From positions 64,001 to 128,000 of the IMG/VR virus record IMGVR_UViG_3300033153_004214: 64,000 nt of DNA; one strand, 5' to 3'. Of the stretch, positions 7,689-54,842 are shown one piece after another. Source of the DNA: a virus. Below the pieces are notes generated by a model. It did not search any database. It saw nothing but the letters and a program-made list of their open reading frames with translations, and was not told the origin of the DNA. Position numbers and translations under genes: made by a program. Positions within the stretch are counted from its first letter, which is position 1; every line of letters begins with the position of its first letter.

Positions 7689-8204
7689 ATGCTCGAAGAC
7701 AAATGCCATGTTCCTGAGGAAGTTCTTGAGGTCTACTCCGTACATCGTGAAATCGGAAGTTCGTTCATTCATCCGAGCGTCGATCAGAAACTCAAGTGCG
7801 AGATATGTGGCCCCGGCGTTCTCATCCGTGGGCTTGACCTTACTGATGAAGAGGTGAAGCTGGTAGAGAAGGCGATGAACCTTGCGTTCACACAGGGTGT
7901 CATCACCCAACGGATGCAGAAGTCTGAGGAGCGGATTGAAAAACTCGAAGCTACCGTCGAGAAGCAGGCGGCATGGGCACTCAGTATTTTGGAGCTTGGC
8001 CAGCCTTGGTTGGATGAGGACGAGAAGGTGCAGGCACTGGAGCCGCAGGTCGATGCGCTCAACAATGGTCAACAGTATGCTGGTGACTCCGGGGAAGCTC
8101 ACCTGCTTATAGACTATCTAGCTGCTACGAAGGCAAAGCGGGTAGCGGGTGACAAGATACTGGAGATCATCAGAAGCACGTTGGCCTTAAAGAATAGTAC
8201 TTGA
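7689..8204 (+). CDS. coiled-coil hypothetical protein
   Basis: 171 residues. A single CEIC pair near residue 37, then mostly helix with a clear coiled segment (QRMQKSEERIEKLEATVEKQ, about 75-95). GAAAGGAAATAGTC precedes the ATG. Located just downstream of the paired TTTGCW dyads, so it is the most likely target of that control. No family is recognised. Confidence 0.65.
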   Translation: MLEDKCHVPEEVLEVYSVHREIGSSFIHPSVDQKLKCEICGPGVLIRGLDLTDEEVKLVEKAMNLAFTQGVITQRMQKSEERIEKLEATVEKQAAWALSILELGQPWLDEDEKVQALEPQVDALNNGQQYAGDSGEAHLLIDYLAATKAKRVAGDKILEIIRSTLALKNST

Positions 8205-8229
8205 CATCTATCCTACCACTCCGTATACT
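8201..8229 (+). promoter_or_regulatory. sigma70-like promoter
   Basis: TTGACA (8201-8206), 17-base spacer, TATACT (8224-8229), preceded by TCCG. Its -35 overlaps the stop of the 7689 gene. Probable driver of 8256 and the DNA ligase. Confidence 0.85.
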
Positions 8230-19044: not shown

Positions 19045-19255
19045 GGTATTCAAGACTAATCTGCACAACCCGGTCTCATGTCTTGGCCGAAACGACAGCA
19101 ATGTCTGTAGGGTTGATGACGAGGACCGTGAATGTTTCTACTGGCATAACCAGCCAGCACCAAGGTGGTGCCCGTTTTGGAAAGAGTTCGCTGTCCTCTT
19201 GAGCACCAACAGTGAAGAAGATCGGATACTAGCGAACAAGGAAAAGAAGGCATGA
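18992..19255 (+). CDS. Cys-rich protein, start probably lost by one base
   Basis: The convincing part is FKTNLHNPVSCLGRNDSNVC...ECFYWHNQPAPRWCPFWKEF to the stop at 19253. No good start exists in this frame after GTG 18992. ATG 19041 is one base out of frame: adding a G (ATGGAGGTA for ATGAGGTA) would give MEVFKTNLHNP. Zinc binding by four Cys is likely. Confidence 0.5.
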   Translation: MAPPARSARVQERRRQHEVFKTNLHNPVSCLGRNDSNVCRVDDEDRECFYWHNQPAPRWCPFWKEFAVLLSTNSEEDRILANKEKKA

Positions 19256-19869
19256 GTCTTGTACTCTGGTCAGGCGGATGTGACTCCACACTATTGTTGC
19301 ATCAGGTGGCTTCCGAGAAGGCCACCAGGGACGACCCGGTGCGTGCCCTGTCGATAGTCCATGATCAGGTGCCCGCCAACAAGGAACAGGCTCAGGCTCG
19401 CAAGAATATCCTCAAGGAGTTCAAGCGCCGGGGCCTTCACGTTGTCCATTCCACTGTTCGAGTCAAGACGACAGGACTCTTCTCGGTTAAGGGTGGTGGC
19501 AACACGCAGGCAGTGCTCTGGCTCGGGTTGGCAGTGCCTTACTTGTTCAAAGACGAGGACCTCTACGCTGGCTACATTCGTGGCGACGACTACTGGCACT
19601 ACGAGGGCTGGCTGCAGGAAGCCTTTAAGAATCTCAAGCACGCCAAGTATCTAAAGGGCAGGCTGCGCACCCCGCTAGAGTGGCTGACGAAGGGCGAGGT
19701 GATCAAGGAGTTAAAGCAGAAGAAGCTTCTGCGCCTGACGTGGTACTGTGAGAACCCCAAGAAGAATGGGAAGCCTTGCGGCAAGTGTCACTCCTGCAAG
19801 GTTCACCGCACCGGGGTCTGGCAGTTGAAGCAGGGAATGTTTGATCGGAAGGTATTGTCCAGTGGCTGA
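19252..19869 (+). CDS. queC: QueC-like 7-cyano-7-deazaguanine synthase
   Basis: 205 residues. SLVLWSGGCDSTLLLHQVAS is the PP-loop (SGGxDST) that activates with ATP. The end has CENPKKNGKPCGKCHSC, the QueC four-Cys zinc site. QueC makes preQ0 from carboxy-deazaguanine; phage copies usually feed 7-deazaguanine DNA modification that blocks restriction enzymes. No QueD, QueE, FolE or DpdA is in the window. It is somewhat short and divergent, so another PP-loop substrate is possible. ATGA-coupled to 18992. Confidence 0.75.
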   Translation: MSLVLWSGGCDSTLLLHQVASEKATRDDPVRALSIVHDQVPANKEQAQARKNILKEFKRRGLHVVHSTVRVKTTGLFSVKGGGNTQAVLWLGLAVPYLFKDEDLYAGYIRGDDYWHYEGWLQEAFKNLKHAKYLKGRLRTPLEWLTKGEVIKELKQKKLLRLTWYCENPKKNGKPCGKCHSCKVHRTGVWQLKQGMFDRKVLSSG

Positions 19870-21980: not shown

Positions 21981-22211
21981 ATGTCGATGCAGGACTATCA
22001 CAATTTCAAGCGCATTCCTCTGGTCACGATGGCAGAATGGGATATGTTGACTAAGTTTCGTCGCTTCATCTTCTCGGATAAGGGAAGAGCCAAGCGTGCG
22101 AAGCTCCTGCTCGACAGGGCGGTTCGATACCTCCGTTCCTCGCGTCCATTCTTCACAACACCGTCAAGGAGGTCTTTGAAGTCCAGTAGGAGGAGGAGAT
22201 ATGCGAGTTAA
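21981..22211 (+). CDS. hypothetical protein, C-terminus probably shifted
   Basis: The first 50 residues (KRIPLVTMAEWDMLTKFRRF) read well. The Ser/Arg-rich end covers the ribosome site of the next gene, while another frame ends naturally LHNTVKEVFEVQ at TAG 22187-22189, just before AGGAGGAGG. A single-base shift near 22130 would reconcile them. Confidence 0.5.
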   Translation: MSMQDYHNFKRIPLVTMAEWDMLTKFRRFIFSDKGRAKRAKLLLDRAVRYLRSSRPFFTTPSRRSLKSSRRRRYAS

Positions 22212-22906: not shown

Positions 22907-22927
22907 ACGGTCGTGAACGGAGGACCC

Positions 22928-24199
22928 ATGCTGAACGCTGATGACGCTGAGCGGGCGCAGGCCGATGCCGTCCGCAGGGCGAATGAAGAGGAAGCACCGA
23001 TGCCTGTCGATGAAGAGGCGAAGGACTACCGCAGGGCCATGGATGTCTTGATCGATCTCCGCGAGTGCCTCCACCGTCTGCGGGTGAACGGCACAAGGGA
23101 TGAGGTTGAGATCGCGGATGTCTATGCGAAGTTGCACACCGCCATAGATGACTTCGAGGAAAAGCTCGCTGCGTTCCTCGGTGCTCAGCCTCCCTACGCC
23201 ACCGAGGTCATCATGGACCGTGATCGTGACAAGAAGGAATGGACGGTTGAGCCGGTTAATGTCGAAGAGAATCCTCACTGCAAGCCATGGCGTGTGGCAG
23301 GTCCTACCCATATCTCCTACATGTTCGACCACGAGGAACATGCCAATCGTCTCTGTCAGCGGTTGAACATTGCACATGAGATGGGCTGGCAGGCAGGGTT
23401 CAGCGAAGCCCACAAGCTGGTGCGGCTGGGTGAGCGGCAGAATGAGAGCCTTCGCAGTCAGGTGAAGCTTCTTGGTGACGACATCATGAAGTTGGGCATT
23501 GGCCTGCCCCGGCTTGATGAGGACCATCCCAATGGCATGGGTGCTTGTGAAGCTGCTGCCATCGGCCTGAAGGAACTCAAGGAGAAGTGTAATCAGTTGG
23601 AGGACCAGTCGAGTTGGGCTAATAGGCAGGTTGCTAAAGCAGCAGAGCTTCTCTTTGAGGTTCGTACCGTCAGGGTGCCTGTGGCTATGCGGGATGGCTA
23701 TGATTCGGCCATCAGGTTGGTTAAGGAGACTTTCGCTCCGATCATGGCTGAACTGTTGACTCGTGAGGCTGGAACGGACCCGAGTCGGGAAGAGGAGTTC
23801 AAAGCCCGTAACGAGGTGGTTGATATCCTCGTCCGCGAGGTGGACAAGATATTGTCACGCCCCACCAAGGAGCGCCCCGGTCTCACGATCCCAGAGGAAC
23901 TCTGGAACTTCGCGGAGAAGATCACTGAGGCACAGGATGGCAATACCATCGAGGCGGCTTCGGGTATTCACACAACCAAGGTCCCTGAAACCAACGTCGA
24001 GTTGGTGCCTCTGCGCGAGCATCCTACTCTGGTCCCTTATGATCAGACAATCTATTGCAGGTGCGGGTGGCGGGGTACCAAGGAGGACTTGGTCGAAAGC
24101 ATTACGTTAGCGTGCCCACGGTGCGGCATTGCGGATTATCTGCTTGTTGAAAAACAGATCGAGGAGTCGAAGGATGATGGAGGTCGATCTGTGATATAA
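22928..24199 (+). CDS. large helical protein with C-terminal zinc ribbon
   Basis: 423 residues, mostly helical with coiled segments (LKELKEKCNQLEDQSSWANR), and a final ribbon CRCGWRGTKEDLVES...CPRCG. CGGAGGA sets ATG 22928. Its length makes it the largest protein of the left half apart from the ligase. No family is recognised. The structured non-coding gap follows directly. Confidence 0.65.
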   Translation: MLNADDAERAQADAVRRANEEEAPMPVDEEAKDYRRAMDVLIDLRECLHRLRVNGTRDEVEIADVYAKLHTAIDDFEEKLAAFLGAQPPYATEVIMDRDRDKKEWTVEPVNVEENPHCKPWRVAGPTHISYMFDHEEHANRLCQRLNIAHEMGWQAGFSEAHKLVRLGERQNESLRSQVKLLGDDIMKLGIGLPRLDEDHPNGMGACEAAAIGLKELKEKCNQLEDQSSWANRQVAKAAELLFEVRTVRVPVAMRDGYDSAIRLVKETFAPIMAELLTREAGTDPSREEEFKARNEVVDILVREVDKILSRPTKERPGLTIPEELWNFAEKITEAQDGNTIEAASGIHTTKVPETNVELVPLREHPTLVPYDQTIYCRCGWRGTKEDLVESITLACPRCGIADYLLVEKQIEESKDDGGRSVI

Positions 24200-24209
24200 A
24201 CAGTAAGAC

Positions 24210-24395
24210 GCTTCAGGCTAACGGGTTGGCAAGTATGGCACGAGAGTGCAGAGCAATCCCTAGCTGGAGGAAATAGACGCTTGCCGAGAATCCAGTGTGC
24301 GCCCTGAGTTGGGAGGCCTGAAGCAAAATGGAATTGATGCTTCCATCGTCTAGTCTGGTTTAGGATACTGGATTCGCTGGTGTTTGATAGGGATT
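24210..24395 (+). ncRNA. candidate pseudoknotted structured RNA
   Basis: The 236-base gap between 24199 and 24436 pairs extensively with itself: 24210-24218 with 24316-24324 (9 perfect pairs), 24228-24233 with 24280-24285 (6), 24238-24241 with 24246-24249 closing a GAGA tetraloop, 24288-24298 with 24365-24375 (11, one G-U), 24328-24333 with 24341-24346 (6), and 24255-24262 with 24388-24395 (8). The fourth crosses the first, a pseudoknot. The order matches P3, P4-P6, P8, P7 of a group I core, but no conserved P7/guanosine-site sequence is seen. Part (24346-24373) also resembles a tRNA-Glu D-arm. No promoter of the local type was found. Confidence 0.55.
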
Positions 24396-24435
24396 AAGAA
24401 GGACGAAGGCGAGTCAGTGCAGGAGAGGAAGAAGA

Positions 24436-24669
24436 ATGCCTAGCTGCGGATGGCGATCCAACCATTCGTGCCCGCGTGAAGAGCCTTGCTACGATCACTT
24501 CGAAACTGACAGCGATGCTTCGAAGTATCTGGAGTCGAGAGGCTACTCCATTCATCGCTTCGTGATCCGACCTTCTCGAAACGTTGAGATCACGGAGAAG
24601 GACAAGTCGGCCATCTGCTTTCTGCTCAATGAGTGGAACTGGGCCTATGCGGGACCTGATTTTGAGTGA
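24436..24669 (+). CDS. small hypothetical protein
   Basis: 77 residues, Cys near the start (CGWRSNHSCPREEPC) and SAICFLLNEWNWAYAGPDFE at the end. GGAGAGGAAGAAG precedes the ATG. No family is recognised. Confidence 0.6.
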   Translation: MPSCGWRSNHSCPREEPCYDHFETDSDASKYLESRGYSIHRFVIRPSRNVEITEKDKSAICFLLNEWNWAYAGPDFE

Positions 24670-25003
24670 GTTCTTGATCCGTATCGACAAAAGCACCCTC
24701 CGCCGGAACCCCCATGTCGGGGAGACTCGTCGTTTCATCCCCGGGCCAGTTGTCACGAATGAAGATGGTAGTCAAACATGCGAGCGTATTGAGGTCAGTG
24801 GTCCTGCACCCCTGTGGCTCTATGGGTTTGAGGATACCGAGGTTGAGTGTGGGGAGTGCCACAAGCGATTCAGCTTTAGGCTGCTTCTTGACTGTGAAGA
24901 CTGTGAGGGAAACCGTTTCGAGGTTTGCCCGAAATGTGGTGAGAAAGACTGCTGTGACATTACCTTTGAGACCCCGGCGGAGGCGTTCAAGAGAAAGGAC
25001 TGA
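24662..25003 (+). CDS. zinc-finger protein, TTG start uncertain
   Basis: About 113 residues. CGECHKRFSFRLLLDCEDC then CPKCGEKDCCD give three or more Cys pairs. No ATG lies at the right place; TTG 24662 or TTG 24674 overlap or follow the previous stop. The frame is convincing, the start is not. Confidence 0.6.
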   Translation: MSEFLIRIDKSTLRRNPHVGETRRFIPGPVVTNEDGSQTCERIEVSGPAPLWLYGFEDTEVECGECHKRFSFRLLLDCEDCEGNRFEVCPKCGEKDCCDITFETPAEAFKRKD

Positions 25004-48066: not shown

Positions 48067-48260
48067 CGGCAACCCTCAGAAGTGAATCCCGGAACCTTCG
48101 CTTGATGATCATCAAGGAGGTCATGCTCGACACACTTGGGCTTGACAGTGCTGCGGCTATCGCTGCAGACAATGGGGATACCCTTGTCCTTCGGGGCAAG
48201 AAGGGTGCCGTGCGGGTCCGTGCGTCGGGTGGCAAGTTGTATGCAGAGAAGGTGGCGTGA
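48060..48260 (+). CDS. small protein behind the hairpin
   Basis: 66 residues: NLRLMIIKEVMLDTLGLDSA and NGDTLVLRGKKGAVRVRASG, a helix followed by a beta hairpin. ATG 48060 is inside the strong hairpin. It is 60 bases after the GroES stop, so probably on the same RNA. No family is recognised. Confidence 0.6.
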   Translation: MDAATLRSESRNLRLMIIKEVMLDTLGLDSAAAIAADNGDTLVLRGKKGAVRVRASGGKLYAEKVA

Positions 48261-48603
48261 TGGACGTAGTTGAACGAGAGTGTAAGCACCACGGTTTGAC
48301 TCGCTATGCACGTGAGAAGTGCAGTGGTTACTATCGTTGCGTCAAGTGCAGGAATGCAAAGACTACTAGATACCGAAAAGATCGCATTGATAAGTTAAAG
48401 CGCCATTTTGGTGGTAAGTGTGCATTGTGCGGGTATGACCGGTGCTTAGATGCGTTGGACTTCCACCACGAGGACCCTGATGAGAAGGAGTTTAGCTTCC
48501 GCGAAAAACGGTATCTTGCTTGGGACAAGTTGGTGGCTGAGGCGAAAAGTGTAAGCTTGTCTGCGCGAACTGCTATAGAGAGATACATTCATCGAGTGGC
48601 TGA
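48260..48603 (+). pseudogene. HNH endonuclease, one base missing
   Basis: Frame one: SGYYRCVKCRNAKTTRYRKD, GKCALCGYDRCLDALDFHHE and AWDKLVAEAK. After GCGAAAAGTG (48543) the other frame continues KCKLVCANCYREIHSSSG to TGA 48601. The canonical HNH end is KCxLVCANCHxExH, so one A is missing from a run of A residues. Zinc Cys pairs and the DFHH catalytic segment are intact. Read unshifted, the frame would run to 48679. Free-standing phage HNH enzymes are often homing endonucleases, here beside tRNA-like DNA. Confidence 0.75.
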
Positions 48604-48634
48604 CCAGCTTCACGTCGCTCTTTGGCAACGTAGA

Positions 48635-48714
48635 CCGGGAGTACTCGGATGGGAGCAACTAGAACTAGGTCGCGCCTGATAATAGGGTAGGTTCAATTTC
48701 TGCTTCCCGGTTCA
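48635..48714 (+). tRNA. degenerate tRNA-like element
   Basis: Acceptor CCGGGAG (48635-48641) pairs with TTCCCGG (48704-48710); T-arm GTAGG-TTCAATT-TCTGC (48687-48703) is good; D-arm CTC-N6-GAG lacks G10. The total is 76 bases, but the anticodon arm does not form (CCTGATAATAGG is the nearest hairpin) and no CCA is encoded. Probably a pseudo-tRNA or a tRNA damaged by indels; no anticodon is assigned. Confidence 0.35.
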
Positions 48715-49948: not shown

Positions 49949-50152
49949 GTGAAGCATGGCGATCCGCCACCGTATTCCCGCGATATACCGCCCGGCGATA
50001 TGTTCGTTTGGGCGTGCTTGGAGAAAATCAAACAGGAGATAGCAAAGTGTGAGGTGCATTGCGCAAACTGTCATCGTATGCGGACCACGAAAAGGGATGG
50101 TGGCGAAGTTGATTCGAGTCCTACCACTCCCGCCACAATAGAAGGGAAGTAA
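49949..50152 (+). pseudogene. HNH endonuclease C-terminal fragment fused to a tRNA 3' end
   Basis: GTG 49949 reads DMFVWACLEKIKQEIAKCEV then HCANCHRMRTTKRDGG, the second half of an HNH domain; the first half (CxxC...DFHH) is absent. The last 13 codons translate TTCGAGTCCTAC-CACTCCCG-CCA, which is the T-loop, acceptor strand and CCA of a tRNA. An insertion-deletion between an HNH gene and a tRNA explains both. Confidence 0.6.
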
Positions 50153-50919: not shown

Positions 50920-51319
50920 GGGGCCGATATAGATTCGACGTGTTGGTCGAGTTGTGTTGCTGCGCTCCGAGGATACCCGGTTGGCCTCGTTAATCATCCG
51001 GGGAAACGATCAACTGCCAAGGATGACAAGAAGGTCATCAAGGTAGACTTCACGCTGCGTAAGGGCACCAGCGTTCGCGTTGCTGCCTAGCCTAGCCGAA
51101 GTCTCCGTCACTGAGTAGCCGCCAGTGGCTAACCCCGCTCCTGCACAAGTCCCGGTGCAGCAGAAGGCAACAGGGACGGACGGCACCCAGAGGGTGTTGA
51201 CTTCAGGGAAAGCGACCTGAGAGGCTTGCCTTGTGTGCCGGATACAGAACACTTGGCTACGAGCGTAGACGCGCATGATGAACCCGGCACGGACGGGGGT
51301 GCAAATCCCCCCGGCTCCA
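50920..51319 (+). ncRNA. ssrA: tmRNA (transfer-messenger RNA)
   Basis: 5' GGGGCCG (50920-50926) pairs with 3' CGGCTCC (51312-51318), one G-U; AGATTCGAC follows as in cellular tmRNA. The T-arm is GGGGG-TGCAAAT-CCCCC (51295-51311). The PK1 pseudoknot forms: CGAGG 50968-50972 with CCTCG 50985-50989, CCCGG 50976-50980 with CCGGG 50998-51002. The tag frame runs to TAG 51088 and ends SVRVAA; starting at GCC 51016 it would be 24 residues and Lys-rich. CCA is not encoded. It rescues stalled ribosomes and marks products for proteolysis. SmpB is not in the window. Confidence 0.93.
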
Positions 51320-54738: not shown

Positions 54739-54842
54739 GTTGAGGTGGCGGAACTGGCAGACGCAGGGCGCACAAGGCCCTGTGAGAGTGAAAGCTAGTA
54801 AGTAGCCCTTACGTACAGGTTCGACTCCTGCCCTCAGCACCA
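54739..54842 (+). tRNA. tRNA-Leu-like, unusual anticodon and long variable arm
   Basis: Acceptor GTTGAGG/CCTCAGC, D-arm GTGGCGGAACTGGCAGACGC as in Leu tRNAs, T-loop TTCGACT with CCTGC, encoded ACCA. The anticodon hairpin is CAGGGC-GCACAAG-GCCCTG: a 7-base loop without U33. Canonical numbering from the D-arm gives CAA (Leu), stem centring gives ACA. The variable region is about 33 bases, 15-20 longer than normal. Total 104 bases. Confidence 0.65.

Follow-up and report, generated by a model that had tools for sequence, protein, structure and literature searches.

The 236-base gap at 24200-24435 probably marks the place where a tRNA-Glu locus of a contractile-tail phage has decayed. To judge by its sequence, the stretch 24339-24374 is a tRNA gene fragment in which acceptor strand, D-arm and anticodon strand stand in tRNA register (Table 1). 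The gap belongs to the window, the whole 64,000-nucleotide stretch of DNA analysed here, which covers bases 64001-128000 of the 145,011-base record IMGVR_UViG_3300033153_004214; positions are those of the window unless another record is named. The preliminary description had noticed that one segment resembles a tRNA-Glu D-arm, which is correct, and the resemblance proved to be larger, taking in a whole 5' half.

Table 1. Features of the gap and of the two ORFs that flank it
Feature	Position	Strand	Details
Upstream ORF	22913-24199	+	428 aa, no assigned function
P3-like helix	24210-24219/24315-24324	+	10 pairs, one G-U
P4-P6-like hairpin helix	24226-24234/24279-24287	+	9 pairs, within 24226-24287
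Complement of anticodon-stem strand 24365-24375 (P7-like 5' strand)	24288-24298	+	11 pairs
P7-like helix	24288-24298/24365-24375	+	11 pairs, beginning with 9 consecutive Watson-Crick pairs
Further helix	24328-24333/24341-24346	+	6 pairs
tRNA gene 5' half	24339-24374	+	nearest tRNA-Glu; ends at U33
Acceptor strand	24339-24345	+	7 bases
T8 C9	24346-24347	+
D-arm	24348-24366	+	4-pair D-stem, 11-base loop
A26	24367	+
5' strand of anticodon stem	24368-24372	+	5 bases
U32 U33	24373-24374	+
Downstream ORF	24436-24669	+	77 aa, relative of phage Pam3 gp59 (PF23986, E 2e-7)

A tRNA 5' half in the gap

When the gap was compared by blastn with 50,697 phage records, the top matches were Streptomyces phage tRNA-Glu genes with the tRNA start in register (E 0.07). 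Outside the window's own record, the 18-base D-arm string occurs exactly in eight viral contigs and a 20-base form of it in two genome contigs. At nine of ten foreign loci the string lies at the D-arm of a complete tRNA, and at the tenth, L023, at that of another half. Each of the nine complete tRNAs, as delimited by ARAGORN, begins nine bases before the string; their isotypes are Glu (3), Pro (3, two of these loci being near-identical contigs), Asp, Gly and Val (1 each). With a looser form of the string, L023 was retrieved along with three Streptomyces phage records that have tRNA-Glu at the site.

Against 152 tRNAs from foreign loci, some of them present twice, the half scored 24.0 for Glu, 21.5 for Val, 20.0 for Gly and 19.0 for Asp, the top scores being partly selected since several of these loci had been fetched via the D-arm string; the best tRNA-Glu score free of this selection is 21.0 (L023). 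As a control, 150 random 36-mers of the window scored at most 13.5 against the same set. A profile built from 14 tRNA-Glu 5' halves ranked 24339-24374 first in the record (E 1.1e-5, 22.7 bits), with the runner-up at 5.7 bits. The same positions still ranked first when the profile was restricted to the nine members that had not been selected by the string (E 0.021), and again when L023 was removed as well (E 0.11); these two values count against reading the half as a relic. Because the anticodon is missing, the assignment to Glu leans on sequence likeness. Phage tRNA-Glu genes whose D-loop is 11 bases long (L032, L033, L035; Streptomyces phages Comrade, Gilson and others) agree with the half in register from the acceptor start through T8 C9, D-stem and D-loop to the anticodon-stem strand; the window differs in holding the 5' half alone, with anticodon, T-arm and 3' acceptor strand missing.

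The profile matches stop at U33. Downstream of 24374 we saw no 3' strand of the anticodon stem, T-arm or acceptor strand, and a matching 3' half was not found anywhere in the 145-kb record. Neither RF00005 nor ARAGORN called a complete tRNA in the gap, and ARAGORN, run with introns and a lowered limit, gave no tRNA beginning at 24339. The Rfam tRNA model stayed silent on the half even when the stretch was cut so that the half counts as truncated, which is evidence against a strong structural signal.

The half is most likely a relic of a tRNA gene, an element of a kind already described. According to PMC9897764, tRNA gene fragments are pervasive in prokaryotic genomes; they are likewise partial tRNA genes with no tRNA function. 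The fragments treated there derive from integration or from CRISPR spacers, whereas no tyrosine integrase was found in the record with the window's half. Such a half might otherwise be an attachment site, copied by the phage from a host tRNA-Glu at which it integrates, and tRNA genes are frequent integration targets according to PMC9897764. We consider this extremely unlikely: PF00589 was unmatched in the record at E 0.1, in a search for integrases of the tyrosine type only, and a 24-base form of the string occurs in no searched genome contig, the 20-base form lying only in Gly and Val tRNAs. Read as a relic, the half is of small importance.

Helices of the gap and the upstream complement

The 10-, 11-, 9- and 6-pair pairings on which the preliminary description based a dedicated pseudoknotted RNA gene are found in the gap, and the pseudoknot can be drawn, as the P3-like helix interleaves with the P7-like one. 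When the two best helices were summed, they were matched by 18 of 1000 dinucleotide shuffles and by 34 of 541 windows of equal size from this phage; for the four best helices the counts were 3 of 1000 and 24 of 541, some of the 541 windows overlapping the gap itself. Taken jointly, the helix set is only modestly above chance.

The 11-pair helix by itself, given the tRNA half, is beyond chance. Its 5' strand sits 66 bases upstream of its partner in the half. When 24200-24338 was shuffled 2000 times, nine consecutive Watson-Crick pairs arose twice and eleven pairs including G-U never; none of 635 other windows had the nine. Within this strand, AATCCAGTG equals the 3' anticodon strand of a complete tRNA-Glu of L023. 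By reading, the bases after 24298 are spaced like a tRNA 3' half; the T-loop consensus is absent there, and two of the seven acceptor pairs fail. A GAAGC spaced to pair with the acceptor strand at 24339 appeared in 145 of 2000 shuffles, which is not significant, and the longest partner for this GAAGC (24320-24324) is the GCTTC at 24210. A profile of tRNA-Glu 3' halves did not recognise the region of the complement. The sequence weakly suggests that the complement may be what remains of a second, neighbouring tRNA-Glu copy; 24210-24219 could be part of the acceptor stem of a decayed copy.

As for folding, the minimum free energy of the whole gap has a z-score of -0.28, with 74 of 200 shuffles at least as stable. 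The sub-stretch 24286-24378, picked post hoc, folds at z -3.2; four further sub-stretches gave z-scores from -1.2 to -1.9, the last for 24205-24330. In the nested ensemble, pair probabilities are 0.83-0.99 for the P3-like helix and 0.01 for the P7-like helix, in a model that is unable to hold both together, and 0.34-0.97 for the P4-P6-like hairpin. Positions 24320-24324 of the P3-like 3' strand have an alternative partner at 24339-24343. The ribosome-binding stretch before 24436 is predicted to be partly paired, with a probability of 0.01-0.90 depending on the base.

The z-score of 24286-24378 and the improbable complement could reflect a structure that has been kept. A functional structured RNA or leader would be a hairpin-rich element with a co-opted tRNA half, regulating the 77-aa gene or acting autonomously, and formed either by the P3-like stem with the 24226/24287 hairpin or by a hairpin of 24286-24378. 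The z-scores of -3.2 and of -1.9 (24205-24330), the complement that chance hardly explains and the stability of the P3-like stem in the ensemble speak in its favour. We nevertheless judge it unlikely, as the whole-gap fold is not above chance, the best-folding stretch was chosen after the fact, no promoter-like or terminator-like site was seen on scanning 23900-24700, no Rfam family matched, and no whole-gap homologue exists among the sequences searched, hence no covariation. The proposal of a dedicated pseudoknotted RNA gene is likewise unsupported, given the whole-gap fold, the lack of promoter-like or terminator-like sites and homology that was found for the tRNA half only. What survives of it is an RNA-gene origin of the stretch, which follows from 24339-24374 being a tRNA 5' half; a group I-like core is not supported either. 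The Rfam covariance search proposed in the preliminary description gave nothing above cut-off in the gap. Its only match in 24100-24520 at E 10 was malK-I, rejected with 16.3 bits against a cut-off of 60.3 and with 100 of its 141 bases inside the upstream ORF. FTX_1 and sR3 were also discarded, both far under their cut-offs.

A group I intron or related ribozyme had been suggested by the P3-P4/6-P8-P7 order of four helices, and this topological order is the one likeness to group I introns that we see. At E 10, the RF00028 model matched nowhere in the record, nor did any group I family match in 24100-24520. The joining segments of the gap, with 16 (24299-24314) and 18 bases (24347-24364), are longer than is usual for J7/3 and J8/7 of group I introns. 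By reading, we found no convincing guanosine site, whose absence the preliminary description had also noted, no P1 with U-G at a splice site and no flanking exons, nor was an interrupted protein gene seen. Since the P7-like 3' strand belongs to the tRNA half, where it is the anticodon-stem strand, the helix order seems to have arisen by coincidence from tRNA parts, and we give the ribozyme practically no chance.

Tandem copies, the L023 locus, and possible permuted or split arrangements

How helices can interleave in tRNA DNA is illustrated by tandem tRNA-Glu pairs, which are present in five of the fetched loci (L024, L025, L026, L032 and L033). When the five were scanned, the best twelve helices included inter-copy ones in every case; in L033, the acceptor stem of the first copy interleaves, in the order seen in the gap, with a helix that joins the T-arm regions of both copies. 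Interleaving can therefore arise without a pseudoknotted RNA.

The other known half is that of L023 (IMGVR_UViG_3300027896_000041), which carries a tRNA-Glu 5' half with no 3' half downstream. The two halves share 27 of 27 bases at 24343-24369. In the viral contigs, no exact match turned up for a 27-base stretch of the window's half. On the minus strand of L023, positions 8124-8220 hold a T-arm and a 3'-acceptor-like strand with the tRNA-Glu 5' half immediately after them, and then comes an HNH endonuclease gene (PHROG, E 1.2e-11; no HNH family of Pfam at E 0.1). The loci are thus alike in the identical bases, in the missing downstream 3' half and in the T-arm-like or 3'-like stretch upstream, and they differ in that in L023 the HNH gene abuts the half and the upstream T-arm is intact, whereas the window's gap has neither an adjoining HNH gene nor a T-loop.

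In the explanation that we prefer, decay of a tRNA-Glu locus, the 5' half is what is left of a tRNA gene, most like tRNA-Glu, that is broken at the anticodon loop. The break could have been caused by recombination or by the insertion at this loop of a homing endonuclease that was later lost; this phage carries HNH genes, but as none adjoins the gap, the homing step is one that we infer. The upstream complement would be the leftover of a neighbouring tRNA-Glu copy, and pairing between strands of one tandem copy and the next would give interleaved helices that look like a pseudoknot. No working tRNA would come from the stretch; at most, read-through transcription would make it the leader of the 77-aa gene, with hairpins formed in it. 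Further points count against this explanation: the 5' half is better preserved than a long-dead relic would have to be, the upstream complement is improbable by chance, 24286-24378 folds at z -3.2, the Rfam tRNA model is silent on the half, and the second copy was missed by the 3'-half profile. If the explanation is correct, a phage's tRNA gene fragments can pass for a knotted ribozyme when strands pair across copies.

The order of the parts also admits a circularly permuted tRNA-Glu-like gene, with the 3' part (24288-24325) before the 5' part (24339-24375) and a 13-base linker between them. The transcript of such a gene would either be cut and rejoined in the anticodon loop to mature or serve uncut as a tRNA-like RNA. 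Several observations fit: the anticodon stem has five of five pairs and extends to 11, its nine consecutive Watson-Crick pairs arising in 2 of 2000 shuffles; the segment lengths, by reading, suit a tRNA 3' half; the L023 half is also preceded by a T-arm and an acceptor-like strand, so that L023 may be a second example, differently decayed, of the arrangement; and 24286-24378, a stretch picked post hoc, folds at z -3.2. Other observations do not fit. By reading, the T-loop consensus is missing, with no TTCRA loop, and the acceptor has only five of seven pairs, while fitting GAAGC spacing is common in shuffles (145 of 2000, as above). For the permuted cloverleaf, the energy is -19.0 kcal/mol, compared with -34.0 kcal/mol for the best fold, and the acceptor pair probability is 0.05, and none of 99 joined junction variants was called a tRNA by ARAGORN at a lowered score limit. 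In contrast, four of four real phage tRNA-Glu sequences permuted in the same way kept the acceptor and T-arm helices in their best fold; the anticodon stem was whole in two of the four. By reading, the 7-base loops that join both parts contain no Glu anticodon. The record has no RtcB or RNA_ligase match at E 1, which argues against both permuted and trans-split genes. We therefore regard a permuted gene as very unlikely.

By reading, the 24288-24298/24365-24375 helix crosses the anticodon loop without bulges. A phage-encoded permuted mimic of tRNA-Glu, with a continuous anticodon helix in place of the loop and perhaps acting as a decoy for tRNA-processing or tRNA-cleaving enzymes, would have such a form, and it is equally improbable. 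The tables of a 2014 review (PMC3978253) list permuted tRNA genes for unicellular algae and archaea, and its main text does not contain the word phage. The gap resembles these genes, as that source presents them, in the 3'-like part coming first, the break in the anticodon loop and the short linker, and differs from them in lacking an intact T-arm, a full acceptor stem, a Glu anticodon on joining and, by reading, a bulge-helix-bulge where the parts meet. Among the literature titles, which cover the field in part and do not amount to a claim of absence, none reported a permuted tRNA gene in a phage. Since the review tabulates algae and archaea, it would be surprising, if RNA were found, for a phage to have a tRNA-like molecule of permuted order.

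A split tRNA, with its 3' half encoded elsewhere and joined in trans, would agree with the 5' half stopping cleanly at the anticodon loop, but it is hardly credible, as the record, which may be incomplete, holds no matching 3' half and no match to the ligases named above.

Surroundings of the gap

Decay of a tRNA-Glu locus would leave the gap at most as the leader of the 77-aa ORF. The sole ORF of at least 60 aa that reaches into it is a reverse-strand frame, 24394-24756. The compactness of the genome, which had been invoked in favour of an RNA gene, is a weak argument: under a mechanical gene model, 21 gaps of at least 150 bases remain in the window, some of which contain tmRNA or may conceal short genes, the model being crude and dropping overlapping ORFs such as 24436-24669.

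No homologue of the gap beyond the tRNA half was found in the collections searched. Compared with ten virus records (L013-L016 and L018-L023; L017 and later loci were left out), the gap matched two tRNA-Glu sites of L023 and one 14-base stretch in another record, and the 428-aa protein matched none of these ten. In the viral contigs, no relative was found for the 428-aa protein, an 1189-aa neighbour or the 77-aa protein, in a search with few peptide patterns that detects close relatives only. With tblastn against phages, four proteins (1392, 139, 201 and 428 aa) gave no match. The terminase was found at ten loci in the viral contigs: one with 99% identity, whose 4,209-base contig lacks the gap, and nine with 28-32% identity. 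Among isolated phages, the terminase has 1103 distant matches, the best with 30% identity over 93% coverage. Since the record also carries genes for tail sheath, baseplate, portal and DNA polymerase, we assign it to a contractile-tail bacteriophage.

Other tRNA-related features lie in the window. A T-arm-like string at 22118 is inside an ORF and was dropped as a chance occurrence. Two HNH endonuclease pieces (48257-48679 and 49949-50152, +) correspond to overlapping parts of phrog_2255 (positions 54-155 and 139-180) and have another ORF and a tRNA-Pro between them; T-arm-like strings follow at 48687 and, by reading, near 50110. The pieces could be the parts of a split homing endonuclease that lies in a tRNA region. 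At 54739-54839 (+), a 101-base tRNA-like match reached 25.6 bits against an Rfam cut-off of 29 and drew no ARAGORN call; to judge by reading, it looks like a tRNA-Leu whose anticodon loop is odd and whose CCA is encoded. A phage tmRNA was identified at 50920-51319 (+; 108.6 bits), and its predicted tag is unusually long, with 24 residues ending in VAA. Lastly, a QueC-like queuosine-biosynthesis ORF at 19252-19869 (+; phrog_1550, E 1.1e-27) hints that the phage might modify its DNA with 7-deazaguanine.
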